Of a stretch of DNA of 64,000 bases, positions 9,319 to 51,000 are shown in pieces (position 1 is the stretch's first letter; every line of letters begins with the position of its first letter). The notes under the pieces were generated by a model that saw only the letters and a list, made by a program, of their open reading frames with translations, ran no database searches and had not been told where the DNA came from. Made by a program: the position numbers and the translations under genes. Origin of the DNA: Pycnopodia helianthoides (lineage: Eukaryota; Echinodermata; Asteroidea; Forcipulatida; Asteriidae); the NCBI GenBank assembly GCA_032158295.1, contig CM063246.1:16713168-16777167 (forward strand), read 5' to 3'.

Positions 9319-9662
9319 CTACACCCCTATGTTCCGACACCCCTATGTTCCGACAACTCAACCACCCCTATATTCCGACACCCCTGTTCCGACACCCCTT
9401 TGTTCCGACAACTCAACCACCCCTATATTCCGACACCCCTGTTCCGACACCCCTATGTTCCGACAACTCAACCACCCCTATATTCCGACACCCCTGTTCC
9501 GACACCCTTATGTTCCGACAACTCAACCTATATTCTGACACCCCTATGTTCCGACACCCTTATATTCCGACACCCTTATATTCCGACACCCCTATGTTTC
9601 GACAACTCAACCTGTATTCCAACACCCCTACATGTATGTTCCGACACCCCTATTTTCCGACA
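9319..9662 (+). repeat. Minisatellite, ~16-19-bp unit CCTATGTTCCGACACC
   Basis: About 20 variants of 'cctat(g/a)ttccgacaccc' alternate with a longer form ending 'gacaactcaacca'. All three plus frames stay open through parts of the array, but the translations are pure repeats and are not taken as genes. Confidence 0.9.
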
Positions 9663-10283
9663 CGATATATTTTCAATTATTATTACTTTGATAATAGTTT
9701 ATATTTTCCACCAAAAAGCACACGCATCACAAAATTCCATGCGCTATCTCGACATTTTTTATATAATATTTTCTTTCTTTCTATTTTTCGACTTGTTTTA
9801 TTGTTGTAGAAAGCACAAATCAGAATTATTGACCAGCCTCTTACAGCTTGTTTTTATGAAATTGAATGATCTTTAAAAAAAATGCGACCTAATGAAACTA
9901 AATGATTTTATTTGACCAGTGAATGCTAAACTGGTGAAATAGAGTTACACCTTGCACTATGGAAGTACAGTGTAAGGGGACGACTTAATAAATAATTAAT
10001 AATGTTTCATTCCCATTGCAACATTTACATCATTGCATGTTCCTAGATCCAGTTCCCTCAATATAGTTGGAGTTATTACGGTATCCAGCCCAAGAGAAGG
10101 CCAACGAAGTACCTGTCTGAAATCCACGCAAAAATTTACTGGATTGATGCTTTAAATCATGAAGATGATACTGTGTAATAAAAAAATAAAATATTAATAA
10201 TAATGATAATAACTTAAAAATAATAAATTAAAATAAATGGATTAAATTGCGGGTGTCGCATTTAGAAAATGGCCAACACAATA

Positions 10284-10432
10284 TTTTGTGCGGGTTGTCG
10301 GAACATAAGGGGTGTCGGAATATAGGGGTGGTTGAGTTGTCAGAACATAGGGGTGTCGGAACATCCGGGCCAGGGGTGTCGGAACATAGGTTGAGTTGTC
10401 GGAACATAGGGGTGTCAGAATATAGAGTGCTC
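10284..10432 (-). repeat. Inverted copy of the CCTATGTTCCGACACC minisatellite
   Basis: Units read 'ggtgtcggaacatagg' with 'ggttgagttgtc' spacers, the exact reverse complement of the array at 9319-9662. About seven units are visible. The two arrays flank roughly 620 bp of AT-rich DNA. Confidence 0.9.
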
Positions 10433-12993: not shown

Positions 12994-15900
12994 ATGTGCA
13001 CAGAATCATTACAAGCTGATCGGGAACTATTAGATCCACATTTTGATGGTTATAAGTTATCACTGGACACATTGCCAACTTATTCAGTTAATGTCATTTC
13101 TGGTAAGTATTACTGAAAACACAAAGTTACTTGTTTGAGAAAATGCCTGACTTTGGCATATGTTCATTACATGTGCATTAATACTGTACAGTGTTCAACA
13201 TGGTTTCACACTATTTCCTGGAACAGAGACCAACAAATATGATCAGTGTTCACTTTACTTTGCCAATACTTTTATCGTTAACCATAACAAAATGTGATCC
13301 TGCATTTGGTTCTGTCATAATCCTTTGTGCCGTATCGTGGCCAAGCCGTTAAGAGCACTGGATTCAAGCTCTGGTGTTTCTGATCAGCAGAGTGTGGGTT
13401 CGAATCCCAGTCATAGCACTTGTGTTCTTGAACAAGATACTTGATACTGGAGCATTAAGCCGTAGGTTTCATGTACTAGGGTTGGTTGTGCATGTTAAAG
13501 AACCCAGAACACTAATCGTAGAAGAGTAGGGGTAAACCCCGGTGTTTCTGTTTGTTCAGGTGTTGTTATTAGGTTTCCTCAGGCTTGCGAGCTACAGTGA
13601 TTAAGTTCACTTATGATGCATCATAATATACAAATGTATATCACCAGATATATATATAATAAAAATAATAATACAAAATAGTTGGTGGCCTGACATTTCA
13701 ACCATAGTAGAGTCTGCTTTCTCTAAGGCTTCGAGAAAGACTATACTAGGGTCAAAACCTCAGGCCACTAACTATTTTTTGTTTTTATACCAAAGGTCCT
13801 TTTGGTTGGTAGGCAGTTTGCAACAGCCATTTCCATTTTCTCAATAATAATAATAACAAAATTGTTCACTGACATTTGACAGGTATTGATGAAGTGAAAT
13901 TGCGTGCTGACCAGTACACATTGCAGCATGTGAAAGCATTTGGTATCCATAACCATTTGATTCTAGACCAATGGCATACTAACTGTATTTACTATGTCAA
14001 CCAGCAATGGAAGGTTATTCAACACAGAATCATATTGGTACGTCAACTCTTCATTTTGCTCCCATCCATCAATCCACGCTTGTGTTGGATAAATTGTGTC
14101 AAAAATATCAATTAAACAATCAATTTAAAGTATGATTTCTTTTACAATTCATAAACTATTTCCTTCTGTTACTGTCATTTTGATAATCACATCATTATAA
14201 AAGATTTGTGAAAAATGTATGTGAAAAATTATTATTTAATACTTACTTGTAAGTGATATTTGTTAAATGATTCTTCGTACTGCTACAATCATTCAAATTT
14301 ATTTATGGTTACCTTGGTTCCAAGTTGTATGTTAATTAAAAAGAGAGTGTGCATTTTAGTGATTGTCATTCGTGCATATCCATTAATGACCACCATTTTG
14401 TATTGATCTTATCAAGGAGTCACAACTGGAACCTGGTAATGAGGTGTTTGAGGTGACCAACAGAAATGAAAGGTGTAATAAACCAAGGCACAATGTGACT
14501 CTAAACTTCCCTTCACCAGACCTGTGTGTTTTATCAGATGGGACAGGTTCTCTTTACTTATTGTCAACTGGGAATAGAGATTGTGCAACAGTGAAACCGT
14601 GGCAGGTTAGTTCTCTTTACTTATTGGCAACTGGGAATAGAGATTGTGCAATAGTGAAACCATGGCAGGTTAGTTCTCTTTACTTATTGGCAACTGGGAA
14701 TAGAGATTGTGCAATAGTGAAACCATGGCAGGTTAGTTCTCTTTACTTATTGGCAACTGGGAACAGAGATTGTGCAACAGTGAAACCATGGCAGGTTAGT
14801 TCTCTTTACTTATTGGCAACTGGGAATAGAGATTGTGCAATAGTGAAACCATGGCAGGTTAGTTCTCTTTACTTATTGGCAACTGGGAAAGAGATTGTGC
14901 AAAGTGAAACCATGGCAGGTTATTTCTCTTTACTTATTGGCAACTGGGAATAGAGATTGTGCAACAGTGAAACCATGGCAGGTTAGTTCTCTTTACTTAT
15001 TGGCAACTGGGAACAGAGATTGTGCAACAGTGAAACCATGGCAGGTTAGTTCTCTTTACTTATTGGCAACTGGGAATAGAGATTGTGCAACAGTGAAACC
15101 ATGGCAGGTTAGTTCTCTTTACTTATTGGCAACTGGGAATAGAGATTGTGCAACAGTGAAACCATGCAGGTTAGTTCTCTTTACTTATTGGCAACTGGGA
15201 ACAGAGATGTGCAACAGTGAAACCATGGCAGGTTAGTTCTCTTTACTTATTGGCAACTGGGAAAGAGATTGTGCAACAGTGAAACATGGCAGGTTAGTTC
15301 TCTTTACTTATTGGCAACTGGGAATAGAGATTGTGCAACAGTGAAACCATTGCAGGTTAGTTCTCTTTACTTATTGGCAACTGGGAACAGAGATTGTGCA
15401 ACAGTGAAACCATGGCAGGTTAGTTCTCTTTACTTATTGGCAACTTGGAACAGAGATTGTGCAACAGTGAAACCTATGCAGGTTAGTTCTCTTTACTTAT
15501 TGGCAACTGGGAATAGAGATTGTGCAATAGTGAAACCATGGCAGGTTAGTTCTCTTTACTTATTGGCAACTGGGAATAGAGATTGTGCAATAGTGAAACC
15601 ATGGCAGGTTAGTTCTCTTTACTTATTGGCAACTGGGAACAGAGATTGTGCAACAGTGAAACCATGGCAGGTTAGTTCTCTTTACTTATTGGCAACTGGG
15701 AACAGAGATTGTGCAACAGTGAAAACATGGCAGGTTAGTTCTCTTTACTTATTGCAACTGGGAATAGAGATTGTGCAACAGTGAAACCATGGCAGGTTAG
15801 TTCTCTTTACTTATTGGCAACTGGGAACAGAGATTGTGCAACAATGAAACCATGGCAGATTAGTTCTCTTTACTTATTGCAACTGGGAATAGAGATTGTG

Positions 15901-18900
15901 CACAGTGAAACCATGCAGTATTTCTTTACTTATTGGCACTGGAAGAATTGTGCAGCAGTGAAACCATGCAGTTATTCTCTTTACTTATTGGCAACTGGGA
16001 ATAGAGATTGTGCAGCAGTGAAAAACCCTGGCAGGTTAGTTCTCTTTACTTATTGGCAACTGGGAATAGAGATTGTGCAATAGTGAAACCATGGCAGGTT
16101 AGTTCTCTTTACTTATTGGCAACTGGGAAAGAGATTGTGCAACAGTGAAACCATGGCAGGTTAGTTCTCTTTACTTATTGGCAACTGGGAACAGAGATTG
16201 TGCAACAGTGAAACCATGGCAGGTTAGTTCTCTTTACTTATTGGCAACTGGGAATAGAGATTGTGCAACAGTGAAAACATGGCAGGTTAGTTCTCTTTAC
16301 TTATTGGCAACTGGGAATAGAGATTGTGCAACAGTGAAACCATGGCAGGTTAGTTCTCTTTACTTATTGGCAACTGGAACAGAGATTGTGCAACAGTGAA
16401 AACATGGCAGGTTAGTTCTCTTTACTTATTGTCAACTGGGAATAGAGATTGTGCAACAGTGAAACCATGGCAGGTTAGTTCTCTTTACTTATTGGCAACT
16501 GGGAACAGAGATTGTGCAACAGTGAAACCATGGCAGATTAGTTCTCTTTACTTATTGGCAACTGGGAATAGAGATTGTGCAGCAGTGAAACCATTGCAGG
16601 TTAGTTCTCTTTACTTATTGGCAACTGGGAACAGAGATTGTGCAGCAGTGAAACCATGGCAGGTTAGTTCTCTTTACTTATTGGCAACTGGGAATAGAGA
16701 TTGTGCAGCAGTGAAACCATTGCAGGTTAGTTCTCTTTACTTATTGGCAACTGGGAATAGAGATTGTGCAATAGTGAAACCATGGCAGGTTAGTTCTCTT
16801 TACTTATTGGCAACAGGGAACAGAGATTGTGCAACAGTGAAACCATGGCAGGTTAGTTCTCTTTACTTATTGGCAACTGGGAATAGAGATTGTGCAATAG
16901 TGAAACCATGGCAGGTTAGTTCTCTTTACTAATTGGCAACTGGGAACAGAGATTGTGCAACAGTGAAAACATGGCAGGTTAGTTCTCTTTACTTATTGGC
17001 AACTGGGAACAGAGATTGTGCGTGCAACAGTGAAACCATTGCAGGTTAGTTCTCTTTACTTATTGGCAACTGGGAACAGAGATTGTGCAACAGTGAAACC
17101 ATGGCAGATTAGTTCTCTTTACTTATTGGCAACTGGGAATAGAGATTGTGCAGCAGTGAAACCATGGCAGGTTAGTTCTCTTTACTTATTGGCAACTGGG
17201 AATAGAGATTGTGCAACAGTGAAACCATGGCAGGTTAGTTCTCTTTACTTATTGGCAACTGGGAACAGAGATTGTGCAACAGTGAAACCATTGCAGGTTA
17301 GTTCTCTTTACTTATTGGCAACTGGGAACAGAGATTGTGCAACAGTGAAACCATGGCAGGTTAGTTCTCTTTACTTATTAGAAAATCTAACACTTGGAAG
17401 GCCATAGGGCCTAACCTCTTGATGCCCACTAGCCTTGATCAAGGCGTTGGAGTTTTGTCTTCATTTGAATTTATTTCTTTGCTCCGCGCCGCTCACTATA
17501 GTAGGGCAGCCAAAGGTTGATATTACACTTTGGACGGCATAGTTTGTTAATGGCTGGCATCCATGCTAGATCTATTGTTAATTGAATCAAGAAGACGATT
17601 AGGGTGGATGCCACCCTCAATTTTGAATTTAAGGTCATTTTGAGGTCAAATAAGGTCAAAATGGGTATTTTTTGATTTTGCACCAAATTAGACCCCAAGT
17701 GGTAGATCTTTCAACCAAATCTATTTTGATCATCATATTGACATACCTAGCCTGTAAAATTAAGAATAAATCTTTTATCTTGTACACAAATGTATAGTAA
17801 AATGAAAACTAAGTGTGATTTTCTCTCAGTTTTTAATCCAAATTTTGTTTTTCATATCACACCTTTATATATGGTATAAGTAAACAAGAAGGTATGTTAT
17901 TCACGTAGTACATTTGAATGCAAAGTGGGTTTATAGTTTGACATGGTGCTCAAAAACTGTATGTCTGATATCAAAGTTGTTTGTCCTCTGAATCTTTCCA
18001 AGTGAACATTTTTTCAGACTCCTACACAGTTATCAAACTCAACTGACAATGATGAATTAAAATGTTGAAAATTTCTGGGGATTTTGCAATTACGGTTTTG
18101 TTGCACTCCTTTAAGAAAGAAAAAGACACACATTCCGTTGGAATACTCTCTCTATCAGAACTAAAAAAGACAACAGGAAAAGTTTTCACAAACATTTCAA
18201 TTGTTATGGTTGGTTAGTTTTATAAAAAATGCGTACAAATTTTACCAAGCATTTTCGTTTGTTTGTTGCAGTGGCTGAAGTGTGTGAATGGGTCAAAGTG
18301 GGAACCTCATTACCAAATACTCCCCTAAAAAAAGTTCAAATATAGACAAAAATTGAAAGAAAGAACCCTTCATCCTCTGATTCACTGAACGTAATATTTA
18401 AGGATAGATCTTTTGTTCCTGAAAGTTTATACCCAATCTCTCAGTAGGCTACATCCTCTAGAAATTTTGCATTTTGTAGAAGGTTTTGTTTTGTTTTGAG
18501 AAAGTTGTTTCTTCCCGAATAGTTGCATGCTGTGCACCATTGCAATTTTTTTTGTCTGTTGAAGAACGGGAACATTTACTGTAAGGAATATATATTTTGA
18601 GGCAATGTACACATCTATATAAAAAATTTCATTTACACCAAATATGATATGATTTCCATTAAAATATTAAAATGACTAAAGCGTTATTAAAGCAAAAAAA
18701 TAATTTATGAATGTTCTCTAGTGAAAGATTGAGTGTTAACTAACCTTGAAGATATCACCACCCTCAGATAGAATGGACTTGTCCCAACAGTCTCAACGGC
18801 CTCCAAGACAAACACCTGCATTTGAATCTTGTCCAGCTTCATGAATATTATGTTTTATGTAGTAAATAAATTGAATATTTATCAAGCTTTGCTATTTTAC

Positions 18901-21900
18901 AGACCCTTTTCAGAGAGGAAGTATGTGGTTTCTATAAGCCCTTTGTTATACTACACTCGATAGTACAGTCATCATCAGCGCCGTGTACTTCGGTTGATTG
19001 TCTACTCTTTTGTATTGAAGAAGAATCACCAGAGGAATCTGAATCAGCTCCCTCTAGTAATTTTACTGCCTATCTAGATTGGTTTACCATCACCAAACCA
19101 AGTGGTAAGAATGAGCTGTGCTTAAATGTTAGGCTTTATATTTGTTCTCCATACACAACAAAGCTTTTGAAGTTGGATATTGAATGCTGACATGAACTCA
19201 TTTTGAAATTATATGCATGTTCTGAGGTCATTTTAGATGCACATGGGCTAGTTAATGAGAAACTATCAGGGCCCATCCAAAAGGGATTCATATTATTTAA
19301 TGAAATACTACTAATTTATATTAATAATCACCTTGGAGAGTTTATGCACTCTGATTGGTCGAAGACTTGTCACGTGGGGGTGTATTAACATGTGATATAA
19401 AGACCGGCTCAGTGAACTAGCGAATAAATGGCCCCTAAATAAGTACATCATTGTGTAAAATCCTATGCACTATGTGCTTGTTGCGCGGAAACTACCGGTA
19501 TCAAATCAACTCATTTCTTTGTTTGTATTTTTTGTTTTGTTATTTTAAGCAGGACATGGTGCTGCGTGCGGCACATACCATGCGTAGGCGTGAACGCGCA
19601 GACAATGTATCAATTTAAGGTAGCTGGTATGCGCAAGAAACCAACATAATGCAGTCATAGTCTGGTTCTTGAAAATATGTATGAACAGTTAATTATGTGT
19701 AAGAGATTAGGTACCACACAAAAATTGGACAGCCAAAGGATTGGCCCTTGAACATGAGTAGAACATTTCTAAAAAATAACGGCGAAAGAAAAACCACAAA
19801 TTCTGACGATTTTTACAGTTTTTACATTATAAGGCATTTATTAATGGGAATAACAGTATGAGGAGCTGGTCTTCACTGCGATGTAATGACGGGGTTAGTA
19901 ATTGGCCGCTGTTATTGGACCAAGCCGAAGGCCAGGTCCATTAACAGCGGCCAGCCACCAACCAAGGGCATTACCAGGCAGTGAAGACTGGCTCCTCGCA
20001 CTGTTATTCCATTATTTCAATGACTTATATAAAAGTGTATAACTCCAGAAAATAGCTTTACAAATTAAAAGTAGCTGTTATTATTATTGTTATTATTTAT
20101 CACAGCATGCAAAAGGCGGATCACATTTTTCTTTGTGCCAGTAACTCCTCGAGTCAGGCTACATCCCGTAGCCTTAGACCTTAAGGGTCTTTCTCAGGAT
20201 CCTCGCTGTTCCCAAAAGCACCGCCTTCTGTAAGGCTCGCTGTTTCCCCAGTGCTTTGGGAATGGTACCAAGTGCTCCAACCACCACAGGGACTACTTTC
20301 ACTTTCACCTGCCAAATTTTAGGGAGTTACCTGGCCAGGTCTTGGTACTTTGGGGGAAAATTTTGATGTGAATGAAGATATATCCAAAATGTGTAAAACG
20401 CTAATTTGCCAAAATGTGTTATTTATTAAATGAAAATGGTGACAATATTATAACTCATGAGAAAAAAGGTACTGTGATTAGATTAGCTTGTTTTAACTTT
20501 TAATTTCTTGAATATTGCAATGTTCATGTTTTTTCCTGTGCTGTTATGGTATATTGTTGTTTTCATATTTCTCTCCTTATGTTTCCAGACAGCGCATCAT
20601 TTGGAGTAAGTCGTAAAAGGAGACTGAGGAGCCAACTTGCACCATTCTACGCTGCTATTGAACAAAGAGGTCAAGCATTGTTAATTGCAAGTGAATCTGA
20701 GTATAAAGTTATTGATGATTCTGCCCATACTACACCAGAGGAAACACAAGCAGATTTACCGGCTGAGCCAGACACTACTAATACTACACATCCATGTAAG
20801 TTATTCAACACTATCAATGACTGCTTGCCAAGATTTAATGATTTGTAGTATGTACATTCCTCAATGTGTTGCGATTTTCATCTCCAATCACCTAGTAAAT
20901 TTAGAATCTACAAGGATAGAAATTGTTATGGTGATGTGTGTTTAAAGTGAATTATTGACAATTCTGCATAATCCTAAGTAGTTGGGATAGTTTGGGGAAT
21001 ACTATAACTGTTCTTCTGTCTGACATGTCAATATCATGCACTATGCCAGTGGTAAATGTATAGTTTCATGCAGCAGTGATATTTAAAGGTTAATTTTGGT
21101 GATGCAGCGTTTTGGGGCTGTCACAATGACACAAGGGAAGGAATTGTGTGTTTCTTCAATATTTGGTTTAAAAAGCCCCAGATAAGTCCTGCTGACTTCA
21201 ATTAGAAAATAATAAGTGAATAGAAAAGTGATGAATGAAAATTTGAAACAAAGATTGGTAAATTATTGATGAAACAAGTGTTATACCTTTTTTAATTGTA
21301 AAATCTAACAAGCAGCATCAGTTGTCCAGCCCTAGTTTTGTTTGTAAAGAGAAATGTGTGTATCATATTATCACCAGAGCTTCATGCACTATTCCTAAAT
21401 TATATTTCAACTGCATTTATTGCATTATTGAGTCTAGTTGAGTAGTGAGTCTTTCAAACCCTTTTTTTTCAGTATACACATGGACTCAAACATCTGAGGA
21501 TGTGATTCTTACATTCATCCTGCTTCCTTCAACACCAAAAACTGGTGTTCAGTTTCTACTTATGGCTGAATCTATACACCTTGCTGTCAAAAGCAAGGGA
21601 GATCTACTAAAGGGCTGCCTTTATAGGGAGGTGGATGTACAGTGCAGTACTTGGACACTTGAAAATGGCAAGTAAGTCGATCAAGTTTTGACGAGTTCAT
21701 GCAAACAGTTACATTCAAATTGTGTGCATGCTAAAACTATGAATAAGGCACCAAAAAAATACATGTTTAGTGTCCTGCCTTTTTGAAAAAAGGGAGGAGG
21801 CGGGTTTTGGGTTTGTTTGTTTTTTTAACGGCCGCCCGACACATTGTTTTAGACAATTGGCTGGGCTTTTTTCTGTGTGTTTTTTCTATGTGCTAAAAGA

Positions 21901-24900
21901 AACAAAACTGACGTTATGTATTTTAGAATTGATTGTTTTCGTCAGAGATCGTAAAAGGAAGCGGGCGGGGAAGCTAAAAATTGTTTTTTTGTTTTTGATT
22001 TGGCCTAATGAACCAGTATTTGTGTTGCTTTTCAGATTTTCAAATTGTTGACTTGAAATCCTGTATTAAAATTGGCTCAATTGCAGTTTGTTTAATGCTA
22101 AACAAGTCACCTAGCAAGTGAACAAAGAGTAGACAAAATTGTATAACTTGTTAATTGTAGACTGGAAGTGACTCTAGCAAAGAGTGAAGAGGGAGTTATG
22201 TGGCCTGAAGTGGTTGAAGGCAATCAAGATGGCGAGTATGTGGTAGATGCAGACCAGGCTAGGATTATTCATGAAAGACTTGCACACCTAACTTCACAAC
22301 AATTGGTAAGATTCAGGACCTGTTCTTATATGAAGAGGTTTGCTTTGTATGGCAACATTCCTATAAACAACAGCAGACAATTGTTTTATTTCATCTTGAT
22401 ATTAGATTGCAGTAAAGCACCAAACTTTATTAATTTTTTAATTGAAACCTTGCATCAAAATATGCAGTGGTACATATAGGTAGGAAGGTTCAAAGGTTCC
22501 ATCATTTACAACTAGTGGGAATGATGTAATTCAACCTTCACAATCTCATACCATGTTGTTTGAGTACATATTTATGTAGTATGCATCCTTGATGCCAGTC
22601 ATACTGACCATATCATTGTACTCCACTGTACAGTGTATACACACACCCCATGAGTATCGTGTTGTTTTAAAAGGTGCTGAACTTTTGTATCAATTCTAGA
22701 TTGATGTCTCGGATATCTGACATTGGTTCAAGGGTGGACATATTGGATATCTGGCATTGGTTCAAGGGTGGACATATTGGATATCTGGCATTGGTTCAAG
22801 GGTGGACATATTGGATATCTGACATTGGTTCAAGGGTGGACATATTGGATATCTGACATTTGTTCAAGGGTGGACATATTGGATATCTGACATTGGTTCA
22901 AGGGTGGACATATTTTGTTCCATCTATTGTTTTAAATAGCTACTAATTTCAACCCATTAACATTCTTTATATAACACCCAAGCAGATCCTTGCCATTTGA
23001 TTGGAGGATTGTCCGTCACGTGATAGCAAATAAATGTACTATTGCATGCTACGTCAATCACCGTGCATTTTTCGTTCCATTAACCGTGCATTTTTCGTTC
23101 CATCCGATTTGTTCTATTGCACGGTGCGTACCACATCATTACGTGCGCGTGTCTGCACTTGGTCACTGTTGAATCCAAATGAGCTGAACCAAAAGAAATG
23201 GGTGTAATGTCACAATTAAATGTTGTACGCTTTGTTGTTTTGAAAGTTGTATCCTCTAATCAAAATGACAAAGATCTACTTGGATATTATATAAAACAAA
23301 TAATGAATAGGAAAAACTATAAATAAATAATAGTAAACTTGCGGGTACAACCATGTGTAAATCTCTTTTGTTTGAGTGTTGGCTCTGAGAAGAGCCGGTT
23401 TGGTCTCGACGTTTCGAACAGTATACTCTGCTTGAAACATCGAGACCAAACCGGCTCTTCTCAGAGCCAACACTCAAACAAAAGAGATTTACACATGGTT
23501 GTACCCGCAAGTTTACTATTATTTATTTATTGTTTTTCCTATTTGGCCACACCATGCAAAGCTTCAAACAATATTTACAAATAAAGAATGTTGTTCATTC
23601 GTGCAATAGTGAGAATATTTTCATTCGTTGAAAGATGGAATGTTCCATTCAACTCGGCTCCGCCTCGTTGAAAAGAACATTCCATCTTTCAACTCATAAA
23701 ATATTCGCACCATTGCACTCATAAACATTCATCATTTGTATAATATCTGAACACATTTTTTATCAGGTTTGAGTGTGACATGTTCTTTAGAGCGGTTACA
23801 GGATGCTCTCAATATTTTTACTATTACCTTTTTATGGCCGAATAGACATCGTAGATACCATTTAATAACCATTTTAAACTTAAAATTTGCATTTAGTAAT
23901 AAAGAATTCAAGTCAAAAATGCACCTCTCCGCGCGGCTTTTTCAGCCGAGAGTCAAAAACTACTTATCTATGATAATGATATGCTATGACCCCTTGACGT
24001 CACCGGCGGCTAAAAACTCACGGTTAGCATTAAAAACACACACACATAAATGTCTCTTTGCTTGGAAAACAAAACAAATACAAGAAGAAACCAAACTTAC
24101 ATCATACAGTTAAATACTCTTTCTGTCCATCCAGAGTATCCTAAATTGTGTCATTGTAAAATGAAGCCGTGATAATGAGGTCTGCGTTGAATGCTTGATG
24201 TGTACAACGATACACTAAAAATCAAGCCGAGCTGCGGAATCACCTCTCCTCTCAAAGAACGAAAATCCCCAAATCATAAATCCGTTGTAAATTGGCTTGC
24301 TGATCAATGCCTGTTGGATCGTCCTTTAAAGAGTCACATTTACGGCCTTATTGATTGCAAATGGTGAAGTTTGGCGTTGTATTTGCGTTAGCTCAGTACA
24401 TTCATATAGGCAGGTCCAAACTAACTAGCCGCCGGTGACGTCATGAGTCCTTCGTCGCGGGGTTTGTTTGACCTTGCGTTTTCAGATTTTGGGCTGGGAG
24501 TGTTACGAGGAAAACACATTTTTACCCTGTTTTAGCATGAGGTAAGGGACTCGTAATAATTTTTTATATTTCTTGTGGACTCCCATCTGTTGGAAAAATG
24601 TAAAAGCTAAATATTTCCAGAGCATCCTGGAGCCGCTCTTTAACCCGTCATTTTTGATAAATAATCTAGCTCTCAACTTTGAAAACTTGTATTCATCCTG
24701 TAAACTAATGCCCATGATATGCACACACACAAACACATATTGACTAACTTTAGGTGCAGGACCTTGCATGTATTCCAGGTATGATCATTTTCTGTCATGA
24801 CATCTATACGAGTTGTAATGTATCTCCTACATTATTTTGCTAATGTTCAGAATCCAGATCCAGTTCCTGGAAGTACACAGTCAGGTATTGGACCTCATGA

Positions 24901-26301
24901 CTTGGAAGAATGCGATGCTTTACCAGCAGGCTATTCAACGTTGATTCGATTGGATGGAAACACACATCAAGTCACTAACAGGGTAGCGTTAATGTTTTCA
25001 ATGTATAACACATTGCTGTACAGTTATGATAGAATGATGTGATATAAAATATACCCCCCCCCCAAAAAAAAAAAACCCCCAAAACTATGGCATTCAATAT
25101 TGACTGATTAGTTATTTCCATAGAGCTATATATATTGACTAGAGCGCTAACACCCCGTTATACACGCACTAAGGTTTTGAAGCCGTGTGGGCGCATCCAT
25201 GTTTATGTACAAACCAATACAAAAGCTTGAAATTTTGTACGGCAATTGTACGGCTATTTGCATGATAAAGCGTTTGTTCTTTTCTATGCGTCATCGAACC
25301 AAATATGCAGCAAATGAGAACGCACAATCTACTAATGAGTGTACAAACTGCGAGCGTCATGTGCGTTTGCGCGTATACGTTTTTTTTTTGAGTTCGTCAT
25401 TCTTGCCGGCATATTGTGTATCCTTGAAGCAGATTGTTTTTTTCCCCTTGACATCTTGAAGCATTGAATCCTCCCAAACAAGGCTTTAGTTCGACTCAGC
25501 ATTTTTCCTAAGACGTAAGTAACAACATCAGAGAATCACCTACTACATATTTTTTTAAGACATCACTAAAATCACCTGTTTACAAGAGCAATGATCGTTA
25601 GATTAAATATGACGCGTACGTAAGCGCGCACGCCGAATGCAAAATTTTCGCGGCCATGTGTGCTCTCTCAAAATTAAAATCGTTCCGTAGTCACGCAACA
25701 CATCAAACATGTCTGCGCCCAGGGTGGCTTCTAAACGCAGAGCAAGTTAGCGCTCTAGTCAATATATAAATAGCTCTATGGTTATTTCTAAAACTTTCCC
25801 ATGACTCATATATACACACAATGAGTATTGTTTGCTTTATCCTAGGTGAGTTTAAGCAGTCATCAGTTTCTGTTCAATGCACAGACTCATCCTGACAAAC
25901 CACCATGCATCTGCTTACGTCATGATGTAGATGGCTTACTATGGCAACCAGATTGGAGTACTGAGGAACATACATCCCCATGGTATCATACAGCAACATT
26001 TAATGCCCTTGGTTATGTACAAGCTTCTAAGACAGATCGTAAATACTCTAGCTGTCCTGCTAGTTGTTCCTATGCAGTAATATGTGATTGCATCAGACAT
26101 CTCTATGTTTATCGGCAGCCAACACCAATCTCCACACCCCTCAGGAATAGGAAGAGTGGACGTGTTGTTGGTCAGATTGCAAAGCAGCAATTAATAAGTC
26201 TAGAGTCAATGGATGATATACTGGGTATAGCATGTACTGATGAAAGAGTCTATGTATTGACCAACAACAAGCTGTACATAGTACGAGTCACATTGACATA
26301 G
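12994..26301 (+). CDS. NUDCD1: NudC domain-containing protein 1
   Basis: Nine exons join in consistent phase: 12994-13102, 13883-14037, 14417-14605, 18903-19104, 20589-20795, 21473-21671, 22161-22305, 24851-24982 and 25846-26301. They total 598 codons including the stop, against about 583 residues in human. Resemblance runs throughout: LLDPHFDGYKLSLDTLPTYS at the start, LSDGTGSLYLL in exon 3, the CS domain in exons 6-7 (PLYTWTQTSEDVILTFILLP, GVMWPEVVEG), and CLRHDVDGLLWQP, TFNALGYVQASK and AKQQLISLE in exon 9. Family knowledge: CS domains act with HSP90-type chaperones or dynein-pathway clients; NUDCD1 is reported to associate with COPI and DHX15. The start exon is preceded by a likely acceptor (ctcttacag), implying a leader exon. 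Oddity: the exon 3 donor is the first of dozens of tandem copies. AATAAA candidates lie near 26575 and 26723. Confidence 0.95.
13328..13640 (+). mobile_element. tRNA-derived SINE, subfamily A
   Basis: The element shows an A-box-like start (tggccaagccgttaagagc), then 'ctggtgtttctgatcagcag', a B box (GGTTCGAATCCCAG), and the tail phrases 'taagccgtaggt' and 'aaagaacccagaacac'. It lies in NUDCD1 intron 1 and matches copies at 33598-34013 and 35158-35402. Confidence 0.8.
14417..14605 (+). CDS. NUDCD1: NUDCD1 exon 3, ending in the founder copy of the 63-bp repeat
   Basis: The exon starts after 'cttatcaag' in phase 0 and ends in phase 0 at CAG|GTTAGT. Its last 19 codons (SLYLLSTGNRDCATVKPWQ) are the founder of the downstream array. 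The next exon continues TLFREEV, so the joined text KPWQTLFREEV parallels the human EKWEIMFNEEL region. This supports the first donor, or any donor a whole number of 63-bp units later, as the correct junction. Confidence 0.88.
14606..17379 (+). repeat. 63-bp tandem array built from NUDCD1 exon 3 end plus splice donor
   Basis: About 44 units run head to tail from the exon 3 donor. Each reads GTTAGTTCTCTTTACTTATT, then about 40 bp matching exon 3, and ends CCATGGCAG, so every junction rebuilds CAG|GTTAGT. The unit is 63 bp, so each intact copy adds 21 codons (core SLYLLATGNRDCATVKPWQ). The first four units stay in frame with exon 3; the fifth has two 1-bp deletions, and later copies carry scattered indels. 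Common variants are GCAATAG/GCAACAG/GCAGCAG and CCATGG/CCATTG. The last copy breaks off after 'acttatt' into unrelated intron sequence. Confidence 0.95.
17400..18900. other. Remainder of NUDCD1 intron 3
   Basis: AT-rich DNA without a recognisable exon, tandem repeat or mobile-element signature follows the 63-bp array up to the exon 4 acceptor. Confidence 0.6.
19322..19995 (+). mobile_element. MITE-like element, copy 2, with foldback end
   Basis: The element is the inverted counterpart of 8420-8980. Its right part ends in an inverted repeat: 'ggaataacagtatgaggagc' near 19855 is mirrored by 'ctcctcgcactgttattcc' near 20010, with 'ggccagccaccaaccaa' inside the second arm. It occupies NUDCD1 intron 4. 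Confidence 0.7.
20105..20345 (-). mobile_element. Retroelement ORF fragment
   Basis: The minus strand translates to IWQVKVKVVPVVVGALGTIP, then ALGKQRALQKAVLLGTARIL and RKTLK, followed by stops. The phrase VPVVVGALG...LLGTARILRK recurs in retrotransposon-derived predictions in marine invertebrates, as far as I recall; the element class is not certain. Confidence 0.5.
22711..22914 (+). repeat. 34-bp minisatellite in NUDCD1 intron 7
   Basis: Six head-to-tail copies of a unit reading 'ggatatct(g)gacattggttc' then 'aagggtggacatatt' are present with few substitutions. Confidence 0.93.
23306..23543. mobile_element. 238-bp near-perfect palindrome
   Basis: The left arm (aataggaaaaac...acttgcgggtacaaccatg...ggctctgagaagagccgg) is repeated in reverse complement on the right, around a short centre near 23425. 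Arms of about 105 bp differ at few positions. The transcript would form a long hairpin inside NUDCD1 intron 7. Confidence 0.88.
23586..23730. mobile_element. Short palindromic MITE-like element
   Basis: The sequence from 'gaatgttgttcattcgtgca' mirrors 'attgcactcataaacattc'. The inner arms 'gttgaaagatggaatgttc' and 'gaacattccatctttcaac' are exact complements around a CG-bearing loop. It lies 43 bp from the preceding palindrome. Confidence 0.8.
25118..25781. mobile_element. Non-autonomous TIR DNA transposon with TTATTT duplication
   Basis: Terminal inverted repeats of about 35 bp begin CCATAGAGCTATATATATTG and contain TTGACTAGAGCGCTAAC. They bound a CG-rich 664-bp interior with no transposase. 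TTATTT directly flanks both ends (25112-25117 and 25782-25787), consistent with a 6-bp target-site duplication. It sits in NUDCD1 intron 8. Confidence 0.8.
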
Positions 26302-42098: not shown

Positions 42099-45000
42099 TC
42101 ATGCTTGATTTAGGTTCATCATGTCCGGCAGTACTGTACTTCGGTACTTCTTCTCAAGCTTGGTCATATAGTCAACATGTTGCCTTACATGAAAGCCTTC
42201 AATACTGTTTTCCTGTAATATAAACCAAATACCATACATGTATCACTTCAATGTCTTTAGATTAAGTTATGTCATCATTATTTCTGTTACTGAAACAATA
42301 CCAATTAAATATATAACATTACAGGTTTCGCCACATATTTTTGAAGTATGGACAAAAGAATGTGGTTTAAGACATTAAAATGTTTGGATTGATTGCTCAC
42401 CTTGAAGAATACCTGCAGTTGTTGAGTCTGTGTATGCAACAGGAGTCTTTGCTGAAGAAAATGTAGTACAGCAACACACATATATACTTGGTAATCAACA
42501 CCCATCACAATGCACAGTGCTATATACTGGCTAATATCTGTCCAGTCCAAGTAATTCCAGAAACATTGACGTAGCCAATGCTGGCAAATCTAACCATGAA
42601 AGTGAGAGGCAAGTAAATAAATAAGTAGTTATTATGGTTTGAAAGGTCACTCCAATGCAAGGATAAAATTTAACTTATAATTGACATCATCATCTTCTGA
42701 TGCACCACCATTTTGAAAGTCAAACTAACAAGATCTGCAGCATCTTTGAAATGTTGCGACATGCATCCATAAGTGAAACCTTGTGCAATTTGACTTCTAA
42801 AACCCTGTCAATGCAGAAACTGAACAAGGCCTGCAGAAATATACTACAGAATTGAAGGAAGAAATATACCTGTGATGGAGTGTAACCAGACATCCTGAAT
42901 GCTGTGTAGACATGTGGTACTTCAGTCTGCAAAATAAGCTCCACATTATGCCCTGTCCTTGAAAACACTGGATGGATACCACTGGATGCAATATCTAATG
43001 GAACATGTTCCTTCATTCACACAGAAACAAAATATTACTGAACATATGGTCACATGAAAAATGATAACTTTGGTTGTTTTAATTCCACGCATTTTTTGCA
43101 AGAAAAAAAAGAAACACAATAACATGCAGACACATAATGCATTAAGAGCTGGCAGAGATTGAGGATCACTCACAGGAAAAGATTGATGTCTGTATTTCCA
43201 ATTCAACAACCATTCTGTTCTCCACTTAGATATAAAGAGCTCGTTGGTCTAGTGGTACAATAAATACTCTAGGTACTAGGTACTCTAAACATCAGTGTCA
43301 AGTAAAACACAAAAAATTGTGACCCCTCTAAAAAATAAATAACATAAATTAAAAAGAAATAAATCTACCTATGATCACAACGTGTTAAAACTTACTGAAG
43401 CATGAAGGCGAGCCATGCTCAAGTAGCCAGATGACAAAATACAGAAACACTTGTGTAGAAGATTCCACGCTTTGTCACGGTTACCAGATAGTAGCAAAAA
43501 AGATGGTACAGACAAACCAATCAAAGCCCATGTAATCTCCTTTCAGGTAGCCTTTAACACACAGTCATTGAGATTGGTCAAGGAAAAGAATCATTGTTGT
43601 ATATTGATATTACATATCAATTTATTTCCTTCTTTTAAAAAAACCCAACTTGGATTGTTGACCAATAAATCTAAAGTGAGCAATAAATGTGATAAACTAT
43701 AAAGAAAGTTGACTATATTGAAATTGCTTTCAAAAATTCAACGCATGCTCTACTTTTATAGCACTATTAGTAGTAATTTCAAATTTGGAAGAGTATAATT
43801 TTACTTGGTCTAAAATGTGTCTATTACCACACCAGGAGAAAACACATCAAGCCTAATGTATTACTACATTGGTTTTCATCCAAAACACTGACCCACCTAA
43901 CAGCACAGTTTGTATCATCCATTAAAACACTGACCCACCTACCAGCACAGTTTAAATCATCCGTTAAAACACTGACCCATCTAACAGCAGTTTGTATCAT
44001 CCGTTAAAACACTGACCCACCTAACAGCAGTTTGTATCATCCATTAAAACACTGACCCACCTACCAGCACAGTTTAAATCATCCGTTAAAACACTGACCC
44101 ATCTAACAGCAGTTTGTATCATCCGTTAAAACACTGACCCACCTACCAGCACAGTTTAAATCATCCGTTAAAACACTGACCCACCTAACAGCAGTTTGTA
44201 TCACTCCGTTAAAACACTGACCCACCTAACAGCACAGTTTGTATCATCCATTAAAACACTGACCCACCTACCAGCACAGTTTAAATCATCCGTTAAAACA
44301 CTGACCCATCTAACAGCAGTTTGTATCATCCGTTAAAACACTGACCCACCTACCAGCACAGTTTAAATCATCCGTTAAAACACTGACCCATCTAACAGCA
44401 GTTTGTATCATCCGTTAAAACACTGACCCATCTAACAGCAGTTTGTATCATCCATTAAAACACTGACCCACCTACCAGCACAGTTTAAATCATCCGTTAA
44501 AACACTGACCCATCTAACAGCAGTTTGTATCATCCGTTAAAACACTGACCCACCTACCAGCACAGTTTGTATCATCCGTTAAAACATGACCCACCTAACA
44601 GCAGTTTGTATCATCCATTAAAACACTGACCCACCTAACAGCAGTTTGTATCATCCGATAAAACACTGACCCACCTAACAGCAGTTTGTATCATCCATTA
44701 AAACATTGACCCACCTAACAGCACAGTTTGTATCATCCGATAAAACACTGACCCACCTACCAGCACAGTTTGTATCATCCGTTAAAACACTGACCCACCT
44801 AACAGCACAGTTTGTATCATCCGTTAAAACACTGACCCACCTAACAGCACAGTTTGTATCATCCGTTAAAACACTGACCCACCTAACAGCACAGTTTGTA
44901 ACATCAGTTAAAACACTGACCCACCTAACAGCACAGTTTGTATCATCCGTTAAAACACTGACCCACCTACCAGCACAGTTTGTATCATCCGTTAAAACAC

Positions 45001-48000
45001 TGACCCACCTAACAGCAGTTTGTATCATCCGTTAAAACACTGACCCACCTAACAGCACAGTTTGTATCATCCGTTAAAACACTGACCCACCTACCAGCAC
45101 AGTTTGTATCATCCGTTAAAACACTGACCCACCTAACAGCAGTTTGTATCATCCGATAAAACACTGACCCACCTAACAGCAGTTTGTAACATCCAATAAA
45201 ACACTGACCCACCTAACAGCAGTTTGTATCATCCGATAAAACACTGACCCACCTACCAGCACAGTTTGTATCATCCGTTAAAACACTGACCCACCTAACA
45301 GCAGTTTGTATCATCCGATTAAAACACTGACCCACCTACCAGCACAGTTTGTATCATCCGTTAAAACACTGACCCACCTAACAGCAGTTTGTATCATCCG
45401 TTAAAACACTGACCCACCTAACAGCACAGTTTGTATCATCCGTTAAAACACTGACCCTCCTAACAGCACAGTTTGTATCATCCGTTAAAACACTGACCCA
45501 CCTAACAGCAGTTTGTATCATCCGATAAAACACTGACCCACCTAACAGCAGTTTGTAACATCCAATAAAACACTGACCCACCTAACAGCAGTTTGTATCA
45601 TCCGATAAAACACTGACCCACCTACCAGCACAGTTTGTATCATCCGTTAAAACACTGACCCACCTAACAGCAGTTTGTATCATCCGATAAAACACTGACC
45701 CACCTACCAGCACAGTTTGTATCATCCGTTAAAACACTGACCCACCTAACAGCAGTTTGTATCATCCGTTAAAACACTGACCCACCTAACAGCACAGTTT
45801 GTATCATCCGTTAAAACACTGACCCACCTACCAGCACAGTTTGTATCATCCGTTAAAACACTGACCCACCTAACAGCAGTTTGTATCATCCGTTAAAACA
45901 CTGACCCACCTAACAGCACAGTTTGTATCATCCGTTAAAACACTGACCCACCTAACAGCAGTTTGTATCATCCGATAAAACACTGACCCACCTAACAGCA
46001 GTTTGTATCATCCGATAAAACACTGACCCACCTAACAGCAGTTTGTAACATCCAATAAAACACTGACCCACCTAACAGCAGTTTGTATCATCCGATAAAA
46101 CACTGACCCACCTACCAGCACAGTTTGTATCATCCGTTAAAACACTGACCCACCTAACAGCAGTTTGTATCATCCGATAAAACACTGACCCACCTACCAG
46201 CACAGTTTGTATCATCCGTTAAAACACTGACCCACCTAACAGCAGTTTGTATCATCCGTTAAAACACTGACCCACCTAACAGCACAGTTTGTATCATCCG
46301 TTAAAACACTGACCCACCTACCAGCACAGTTTGTATCATCCGTTAAAACACTGACCCACCTAACAGCAGTTTGTATCATCCGTTAAAACACTGACCCACC
46401 TAACAGCACAGTTTGTATCATCCGTTAAAACACTGACCCACCTAACAGCAGTTTGTATCATCCGATAAAACACTGACCCACCTAACAGCAGTTTGTATCA
46501 TCCGATAAAACACTGACCCACCTAACAGCAGTTTGTAACATCCAATAAAACACTGACCCACCTAACAGCAGTTTGTATCATCCGATAAAACACTGACCCA
46601 CCTACCAGCACAGTTTGTATCATCCGTTAAAACACTGACCCACCTAACAGCAGTTTGTATCATCCGATAAAACACTGACCCACCTACCAGCACAGTTTGT
46701 ATCATCCGTTAAAACACTGACCCACCTAACAGCAGTTTGTATCATCCGTTAAAACACTGACCCACCTAACAGCACAGTTTGTATCATCCGTTAAAACACT
46801 GACCCACCTACCAGCACAGTTTGTATCATCCGTTAAAACACTGACCCACCTAACAGCAGTTTGTATCATCCGTTAAAACACTGACCCACCTAACAGCACA
46901 GTTTGTATCATCCGTTAAAACACTGACCCACCTAACAGCAGTTTGTATCATCCGATAAAACACTGACCCACCTAACAGCAGTTTGTAACATCCAATAAAA
47001 CACTGACCCACCTAACAGCAGTTTGTATCATCCGATAAAACACTGACCCACCTACCAGCACAGTTTGTATCATCCGTTAAAACACTGACCCACCTAACAG
47101 CAGTTTGTATCATCCGATAAAACACTGACCCACCTACCAGCACAGTTTGTATCATCCGTTAAAACACTGACCCACCTAACAGCAGTTTGTATCATCCGAT
47201 AAAACACTGACCCACCTACCAGCACAGTTTGTATCATCCGTTAAAACACTGACCCACCTACCAGCACAGTTTGTATCATCCGTTAAAACACTGACCCACC
47301 TAACAGCAGTTTGTATCATCCGATAAAACACTGACCCACCTAACAGCACAGTTTGTATCATCCGTTAAAACACTGACCCACCTAACAGCACAGTTTGTAT
47401 TATCCGTTAAAACACTGACCCACCTAACAGCAGTTTGTATCATCCGATAAAACACTGACCCACCTAACAGCAGTTTGTAACATCCAATAAAACACTGACC
47501 CACCTAACAGCAGTTTGTATCATCCGATAAAACACTGACCCACCTACCAGCAGTTTGTATCATCCGTTAAAACACTGACCCACCTAACAGCAGTTTGTAT
47601 CATCCGATAAAACACTGACCCACCTACCAGCACAGTTTGTATCATCCGTTAAAACACTGACCCACCTAACAGCAGTTTGTATCATCCATTAAAACACTGA
47701 CCCACCTAACAGCAGTTTGTATCATCCGTTAAAACACTGACCCACCTACCAGCACAGTTTGTATCATCCGTTAAAACACTGACCCACCTAACAGCAGTTT
47801 GTATCATCCGATAAAACACTGACCCACCTAACAGCACAGTTTGTATCATCCGTTAAAACACTGACCCACCTAACAGCACAGTTTGTATTATCCGTTAAAA
47901 CACTGACCCACCTAACAGCAGTTTGTATCATCCGATAAAACACTGACCCACCTAACAGCAGTTTGTAACATCCAATAAAACACTGACCCACCTAACAGCA

Positions 48001-51000
48001 GTTTGTATCATCCGATAAAACACTGACCCACCTACCAGCACAGTTTGTATCATCCGTTAAAACACTGACCCACCTAACAGCAGTTTGTATCATCCATTAA
48101 AACACTGACCCACCTAACAGCAGTTTGTATCATCCATTAAAACACTGACCCACCTAACAGCACAGTTTACATCATCCGTTAAAACACTGACCCACCTAAC
48201 AGCAGTTTGTATCATCCATTAAAACACTGACCCACCTAACAGCAGTTTGTATCATCCATTAAAACACTGACCCACCTAACAGCACAGTTTGTATCATCCA
48301 TTAAAACACTGACCCACCTAACAGCACAGTTTGTATCATCCATTAAAACACTGACCCACCTAACAGCAGTTTGTATCATCCATTAAAACACTGACCCACC
48401 TACCAGCACAGTTTGTATCATCCATTAAAACACTGACCCACCTAACAGCACAGTTTGTATCATCCGTTAAAACACTGACCCACCTAACAGCACAGTTTGT
48501 ATCATCCATTAAAACACTGACCCACCTACCAGCACAGTTTGTATCATCCGTTAAAACACTGACCCACCTAACAGCAGTTTGTATCATCCGTTAAAACACT
48601 GACCCACCTAACAGCACAGTTTGTATCATCCATTAAAACACTGACCCACCTACCAGCACAGTTTGTATCATCCGTTAAAACACTGACCCACCTAACAGCA
48701 GTTTGTATCATCCGTTAAAACACTGACCCACCTAACAGCAGTTTGTATCATCCATTAAAACACTGACCCACCTAACAGCACAGTTTGTATCATCCAATAA
48801 AACACTGACCCACCTAACAGCAGTTTGTATCATCCGTTAAAACACTGACCCACCTAACAGCACAGTTTGTATCATCCGTTAAAACACTGACCCACCTAAC
48901 AGCAGTTTGTATCATCCGATAAAACACTGACCCACCTAACAGCAGTTTGTATCATCCGATAAAACACTGACCCACCTAACAGCAGTTTGTAACATCCAAT
49001 AAAACACTGACCCACCTAACAGCAGTTTGTATCATCCGATAAAACACTGACCCACCTACCAGCACAGTTTGTATCATCCGTTAAAACACTGACCCACCTA
49101 ACAGCAGTTTGTATCATCCGATAAAACACTGACCCACCTACCAGCACAGTTTGTATCATCCGTTAAAACACTGACCCACCTAACAGCAGTTTGTATCATC
49201 CGTTAAAACACTGACCCACCTAACAGCACAGTTTGTATCATCCGTTAAAACACTGACCCACCTACCAGCACAGTTTGTATCATCCGTTAAAACACTGACC
49301 CACCTAACAGCAGTTTGTATCATCCGTTAAAACACTGACCCACCTAACAGCACAGTTTGTATCATCCGTTAAAACACTGACCCACCTAACAGCAGTTTGT
49401 ATCATCCGATAAAACACTGACCCACCTAACAGCAGTTTGTAACATCCAATAAAACACTGACCCACCTAACAGCAGTTTGTATCATCCGATAAAACACTGA
49501 CCCACCTACCAGCACAGTTTGTATCATCCGTTAAAACACTGACCCACCTAACAGCAGTTTGTATCATCCGATAAAACACTGACCCACCTACCAGCACAGT
49601 TTGTATCATCCGTTAAAACACTGACCCACCTAACAGCAGTTTGTATCATCCGATAAAACACTGACCCACCTACCAGCACAGTTTGTATCATCCGTTAAAA
49701 CACTGACCCACCTACCAGCACAGTTTGTATCATCCGTTAAAACACTGACCCACCTAACAGCAGTTTGTATCATCCGATAAAACACTGACCCACCTAACAG
49801 CACAGTTTGTATCATCCGTTAAAACACTGACCCACCTAACAGCACAGTTTGTATTATCCGTTAAAACACTGACCCACCTAACAGCAGTTTGTATCATCCG
49901 ATAAAACACTGACCCACCTAACAGCAGTTTGTAACATCCAATAAAACACTGACCCACCTAACAGCAGTTTGTATCATCCGATAAAACACTGACCCACCTA
50001 CAGCAGTTTGTATCATCCGTTAAAACACTGACCCACCTAACAGCAGTTTGTATCATCCGATAAAACACTGACCCACCTACCAGCACAGTTTGTATCATCC
50101 GTTAAAACACTGACCCACCTAACAGCAGTTTGTATCATCCATTAAAACACTGACCCACCTAACAGCAGTTTGTATCATCCGTTAAAACACTGACCCACCT
50201 ACCAGCACAGTTTGTATCATCCGTTAAAACACTGACCCACCTAACAGCAGTTTGTATCATCCGATAAAACACTGACCCACCTAACAGCACAGTTTGTATC
50301 ATCCGTTAAAACACTGACCCACCTAACAGCACAGTTTGTATTATCCGTTAAAACACTGACCCACCTAACAGCAGTTTGTATCATCCGATAAAACACTGAC
50401 CCACCTAACAGCAGTTTGTAACATCCAATAAAACACTGACCCACCTAACAGCAGTTTGTATCATCCGATAAAACACTGACCCACCTACCAGCACAGTTTG
50501 TATCATCCGTTAAAACACTGACCCACCTAACAGCAGTTTGTATCATCCATTAAAACACTGACCCACCTAACAGCAGTTTGTATCATCCATTAAAACACTG
50601 ACCCACCTAACAGCACAGTTTACATCATCCGTTAAAACACTGACCCACCTAACAGCAGTTTGTATCATCCATTAAAACACTGACCCACCTAACAGCAGTT
50701 TGTATCATCCATTAAAACACTGACCCACCTAACAGCACAGTTTGTATCATCCATTAAAACACTGACCCACCTAACAGCACAGTTTGTATCATCCATTAAA
50801 ACACTGACCCACCTAACAGCAGTTTGTATCATCCATTAAAACACTGACCCACCTACCAGCACAGTTTGTATCATCCATTAAAACACTGACCCACCTAACA
50901 GCACAGTTTGTATCATCCGTTAAAACACTGACCCACCTAACAGCACAGTTTGTATCATCCATTAAAACACTGACCCACCTACCAGCACAGTTTGTATCAT

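Follow-up and report, generated by a model that had tools for sequence, protein, structure and literature searches.

The 3' end of exon 3 of a sea-star NUDCD1 gene, together with the splice donor that follows it, is the source unit of a long tandem array that runs on into the adjoining intron. The array lies at 14547-17379 of the window (the whole stretch of 64,000 nucleotides that was analysed), where TRF reports a 63-bp period with 45.3 copies, 95% matches, and a score of 5057, and its units vary internally. The most probable explanation, in our view, is a neutral, VNTR-like minisatellite, the unit of which came by chance from sequence on both sides of the exon 3 end, donor included.

The host gene

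The gene combines a CS domain with full-length homology to NUDCD1 proteins, which places it in this family. Pfam detects the domain (PF04969, E=8.9e-12) in the CS exon and gives no match in the other four pieces scanned; matches to solved structures (5 sequences) are limited to the CS domain. Among the matches listed by the protein search, the best is the protein of A. amurensis, with 86% identity over the 552-aa query (88% in the multiple alignment), and the next sea-star matches are those of Acanthaster (65%) and Patiria (63%). By these identities the window comes from a sea star close to Asterias, though probably not from A. amurensis itself; among the 120 matches listed of 566, no protein of the source species was recognized. 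The 552-aa query, which served for the identity, structure, and alignment searches, is the first gene model and is without eight residues at the exon 2 join. An exon 2 end at 14013 with a GTTATT donor was rejected, as homologues indicate an end at 14037 (TTG|GTACGT). Once spliced and translated, exons 2-9 (13883-26301), all bordered by GT/AG, can be read without interruption for 560 residues up to the stop. The parts of the gene around the array are as follows.

about 12994-13104: NUDCD1 exon 1, located by tblastn with the Asterias amurensis protein
14417..14605, + strand: NUDCD1 exon 3, with 63 codons in 189 nt, starting and ending in phase 0; last residues ...VKPWQ
14606..14611, + strand: native donor GTTAGT of intron 3 (CAG|GTTAGT); 11 aligned homologues bear out the exon 3-4 join
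14606..18902, + strand: NUDCD1 intron 3, 4297 nt, of which the array makes up about two thirds
18903..19104, + strand: NUDCD1 exon 4, beginning TLFREEVCGF...

Both the assignment to NUDCD1 and the predicted end of exon 3 are supported by the spliced translation and by homologues. Residues 90-155 of the A. amurensis protein (P0001) match 14408-14605 at 88% in tblastn, and exon 3 (ending at 14605) joins exon 4 (beginning at 18903) in phase; thus, 2774 nt of intron 3 (4297 nt in all) are taken up by the array. In the alignment of 11 homologues, none has an insertion where exons 3 and 4 meet. In a wider comparison with P0001, which covered 119 homologues from the best 120 of 566 matches, an insertion of at least 10 aa within 25 aa of the join is absent from 118, the lone exception being P0021 (Owenia).

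Anatomy of the array

Splitting the array at the motif TCTTTACT[TA]ATT yields 46 pieces, of which 45 are full units and the last is a 12-nt tail. Exactly 34 of the 45 full units are 63 bp long, the whole range being 55-67 bp, and these 34 comprise 17 distinct sequences. At its right end the array stops in mid-unit, after CTTTACTTATT, and is followed by other intron sequence.

14547..14605, + strand: exonic part of unit 1, the source copy inside exon 3
14614..17367, + strand: units 2-45, the 44 complete copies of the 63-bp unit that lie in the intron
17368..17379, + strand: final, truncated copy; different intron sequence from 17380

Because unit 1 is the exon copy, ending at the native donor (14605/14606), there are 44 further full copies, in agreement with the approximately 44-fold amplification of exon end and donor that an earlier, sequence-only reading had proposed. 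That reading had also made each unit out of the end of the exon and the start of the intron, which is what we find: since GTT is common to both sides of the joint, the unit can be read as anything from 56 exonic plus 7 intronic nt up to 59 plus 4. The short sequence that it supposed to be shared by both ends comes down to these 3 bp. Units of 10-100 bp, internal variants, and growth by units or blocks are the marks of a minisatellite, and here the unit is 63 bp, there are 17 variants, and similarity recurs at a lag of 11 units.

Splice donors at the unit junctions

The donor sequence CAG|GTTAGT (CAGGTTAGT) is exact at 39 of the 45 unit junctions, namely the native donor and 38 copies. The remaining six are altered or degenerate, so that the donor is rebuilt at most junctions. 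The junction of unit 6 reads CAGGTTATT (GTTATT), the sole one of that type among the 45; those of units 21, 32, and 41 read CAGATTAGT, in which the donor GT has become AT and the GT is lost; and those of units 22 and 23 (2/45) are degenerate. Across the 64-kb window, CAGGTTAGT occurs 40 times on the + strand and once on the minus strand, so its excess is far above chance.

Donor strength was scored on a matrix of human sites, and the following values are to be read on that scale. The unit donor, at 8.6 bits, is the third strongest of the seven NUDCD1 donors scored, the other six spanning 2.4-9.3 bits. An equally good donor is present on the same strand in 2.9% of 5000 random 63-bp pieces of the window (5.8% if either strand is counted), with 21 such sites outside the array on the + strand and 25 on the whole minus strand. 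With only 2.9% of random pieces carrying one, the unit of any particular array would not be expected to contain a donor, and this counts against the neutral explanation. Tandem arrays are abundant in the window, however, which speaks for it: 13 intervals, picked by hand from the TRF list, cover 13,524 of its 64,000 bases. A donor-bearing unit is thus uncommon for any one array, yet less remarkable in a repeat-rich genome.

Origin and variation between units

At the left edge the exon reads ACAG|GTTCTC (ACAGGTTCTC), whereas the regular repeat junction reads CAG|GTTAGTTCTC (array sequence CAGGTTAGTTCTC); the difference at this edge, from which the exon copy had been called the founder, is therefore real. 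The position of the exon copy agrees with a founder role, but its sequence agrees less well. Columns 14 and 49 set it apart from the array consensus. The first of these falls in codon 14564-14566, which is Ser in the exon but has the base for Ala in 43 of the 44 array units. The matching codon is Ala in three other sea stars aligned, and on this comparison the array looks like the keeper of a seemingly older Ala state. Six units carry GCA at column 38, which gives CAAV, as in A. amurensis. Unit 31 alone has the exon's base at column 14, for which conversion from the exon or a second mutation may account.

In the mechanism that we propose, a tandem duplication would have linked the first 4-7 intronic nt back to the exonic GTTCTC, with GTT shared, and repeated slippage or unequal exchange would then have expanded the copies to about 44. 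Part of this growth may have been by blocks some 11 units long, since the types of unit tend to repeat 11 units further on (z = 3.2; corrected for the 24 lags compared, p = 0.024), as block duplication would predict.

A mobile element as the cause of the truncated right end was rejected, as the right flank (17380-18902) is without a second copy in the window; this check covered the 64-kb window, so that elements with copies elsewhere in the genome are still conceivable.

Reliability of the assembled array

It is quite possible, although short of probable, that the assembler got both the copy number and the interior indels wrong, the array being real, of unknown length, and assembled from reads placed in the wrong register. 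Such errors are compatible with a neutral minisatellite. The case for them comes from where the deletions fall. Twelve of the 63 columns vary between units, and outside units 22-23, 8 of the 10 deleted columns coincide with a variable column or belong to a run that adjoins one (p = 5e-5). One of these ten, in unit 15, is paired with an insertion, and if it is set aside the count is 7 of 9 (p = 2e-4). When units 22-23 are included, the count is 15 of 25 (p = 7e-6). Moreover, all ten deletion-bearing units are confined to one part of the array (p about 0.009).

14866..16418, + strand: units 6-30, which hold every deletion-bearing unit; the consensus here is likely unreliable

This is the pattern expected when reads of different units are stacked in consensus calling. 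As most deletions are at variable sites and none lies outside units 6-30, errors of assembly may account for the copy number and for the frameshifts inside the array. Exons 2-9 of NUDCD1, which are without a frameshift, also favor this explanation.

On the other hand, two other arrays in the window are far cleaner: one, with 182 units, has 3 single-base deletions and the other, with 26 units, has 0, vs 21 in the NUDCD1 array. This argues that the assembler is not generally prone to such deletions and that the fault, if there is one, is local. These arrays are too clean to confirm the deletion pattern: 2 of their 3 deletions are at variable sites (p = 0.19). The 17 distinct sequences and the block structure are those of a real multi-copy array, and some of the deletions may be true. 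We infer that the array is real and that its exact copy number and interior frameshifts are not to be trusted.

Tests for constraint

Units 2-45 show 13 types of substitution. The donor columns, which make up 9 of the 63, hold 2 of the 13 vs 1.9 expected, so that changes in these columns occur at the background rate. Coding changes between units look neutral: 3 of the 13 types are synonymous, where the expected fraction is 0.23, and one, found in unit 39, is a stop codon. The predicted RNA fold of three units (14547-14735) is no better than that of shuffled sequences (z = 0.67; 149 of 200 shuffles are at least as stable). In sum, no sign that the copies are being maintained was found in the donor columns, the coding changes, or RNA folding, and the array is most likely neutral. 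On the other hand, the exactness of 39 of the 45 junctions weighs against full neutrality, and since there are only 13 change types, weak constraint would go unseen.

Predicted splicing outcomes

Forty CAG|GT positions were tried as ends of exon 3, with reading frames computed from the array as assembled. The full frame is kept from the native donor and the next four copies (0, 63, 126, 189, and 252 nt); for the remaining 35 ends, the spliced frame is closed by a stop at residue index 229, after unit 6, at 61 bp, has shifted it. The native donor at 14605 would make most of the NUDCD1 mRNA, leaky use of the next four donor copies would insert 21-84 aa in frame, and the later copies, as assembled, would lead to a premature stop. 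If the deletions are false, the in-frame downstream donors could exceed four. In one published study (PMC5585400), SRSF1 and site strength governed the choice between two competing donors; on that account, the winning donor copy is not predicted from sequence.

Such computed frames raise the idea that the downstream donors are used productively, so that NUDCD1 would have isoforms longer by one to four repeats of 21 residues (VSSLYLLATGNRDCATVKPWQ), or by more should the frameshifts inside the array be errors of the assembly. In favor of this, the length of the unit is divisible by 3, its frame is open, and the native donor and the four copies described above keep the full reading frame. We nevertheless regard them as unlikely. 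The coding changes between units look neutral and include the stop in unit 39, and a similar repeat protein was not found at E<=10 among the 8000 candidates scored (eligible length about 52-164 aa).

Less likely again is that the length of the array acts as a tunable splicing rheostat, in which competition of the native with the repeated donors sets the shares of NUDCD1 mRNA and copy number alters output between individuals, much as has been reported for the activity of CBS. If it did, the shares would be those of normal mRNA, of mRNA with in-frame 21-residue inserts, and of mRNA with a premature stop.

The sequence-only reading had suggested a donor buffer or U1-binding platform. Such a device could secure the recognition of exon 3 or shield intron 3 from premature polyadenylation. 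Thirty-eight extra exact donors, all in one direction and just downstream of the true one, are an arrangement that would suit this role, as would the rank of the unit donor (third of seven, again on the human matrix). The variation between units lends the proposal no support, however: the donor columns change at the background rate instead of showing excess conservation, units 21, 32, and 41 carry the GT-to-AT change that kills the donor, and we see no sign that the native donor needs help. We therefore think it very improbable that the array works in this way. Scarcely credible is the idea that the CAG|GTTAGT copies are ratchet points for recursive splicing of intron 3: CAG does adjoin a GT donor at most junctions, but ratchet sites have a pyrimidine tract before the AG, the bases before the CAG here (GTGAAACCATGGCAG) are, judged by eye, purine-rich and without such a tract, and a 4.3-kb intron should not need ratchet points.

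With a neutral minisatellite as the preferred explanation, the dozens of spare splice sites are, as far as the sequence can tell, most likely a by-product of repeat expansion, and a conserved gene would then tolerate many duplicated donors beside the true one. The locus amounts to a natural competition experiment, in which dozens of near-identical donors, spaced at 63 nt, come after a single exon end, the first few of them in frame. Provided that the gene is transcribed normally, its cDNA would reveal the distance that an animal spliceosome will go downstream while the sequence of the site and its local context stay the same.

Comparison with known boundary-spanning repeats

Among coding genes, human CBS offers another duplicated splice boundary in 844ins68, reportedly a single duplication that copies an intron-exon boundary and its acceptor and is skipped by alternative splicing. 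The likeness is that a splice boundary is duplicated and the transcript is, or in NUDCD1 would be, kept normal; 844ins68 reportedly duplicates a single acceptor, whereas the sea-star gene has an array of donors.

The closest comparator is also in human CBS, where a tandem unit likewise spans an exon end and the adjoining splice donor. The 31-bp VNTR of that gene is described as c.1444_1467+7(16_21), that is, 24 exonic and 7 intronic nt in 16-21 copies, with single-base differences between units (PMC2630376). A second paper places it at the exon 13/intron 13 boundary and mentions lower CBS activity with more repeat units (PMC5188458, citing Lievers 2001). Both arrays consist of an exon end and the first 7 intronic nt in tandem, with the exon-intron boundary recurring in each unit, and the NUDCD1 array and the CBS VNTR are the same kind of object. 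The NUDCD1 array is accordingly less unusual than had been supposed. There are differences: the CBS repeat is 31 bp, constant in length, present in 16-21 copies, and polymorphic in people, whereas the sea-star unit is 63 bp (a multiple of 3), is present in about 44 copies of variable length in the assembly, and belongs to another gene and another phylum.

In potato RdRp, one tandem duplication across an exon-intron boundary led to a new intron (PMC4974935). The two cases are alike in that a boundary-spanning tandem duplication copied a splice site, but in NUDCD1 a pre-existing intron gained many donor copies: the predicted gene model places the whole array in one intron, between exons 3 and 4, although the array may yet contain a new exon. 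Within a limited literature collection, no paper was found that combines NUDCD1 with a minisatellite, and no other donor array of this kind besides CBS was recognized by titles and the beginnings of abstracts.

Other features of the window

A second large array, of 7.5 kb, is found at 43882-51359 and has about 182 units of 40-41 bp (an 82-bp double unit). Several of its reading frames recur, letter for letter, about 2453-2454 bp apart (e.g., at 47300 and 49754), which points to a large duplication, either internal to the array or introduced by the assembly; at this lag, the array as a whole matches itself at only 47-48% identity.

Exons of a BROMI/TBC1D32-like gene lie on the minus strand at 58698-61665 (PF14961, E=2.4e-17 and 5.9e-6). 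Also on the minus strand, a frame at 2307-2822 has a CCHC zinc knuckle (PF00098) as well as a run of GRGRG that a 6-bp repeat encodes; minus-strand frames near it have what we take to be a helicase-like, RECQ4-like look, with no Pfam match in the one piece scanned. Minus-strand frames at 52720-54520 resemble, by eye, fragments of a LINE endonuclease and reverse transcriptase, and neither of the two pieces tested had a Pfam match. Finally, a motif beginning TTCCGACACCCCTAT is arrayed at 9321-9663 and, judged by eye, seemingly appears again on the opposite strand around 10292-10430.
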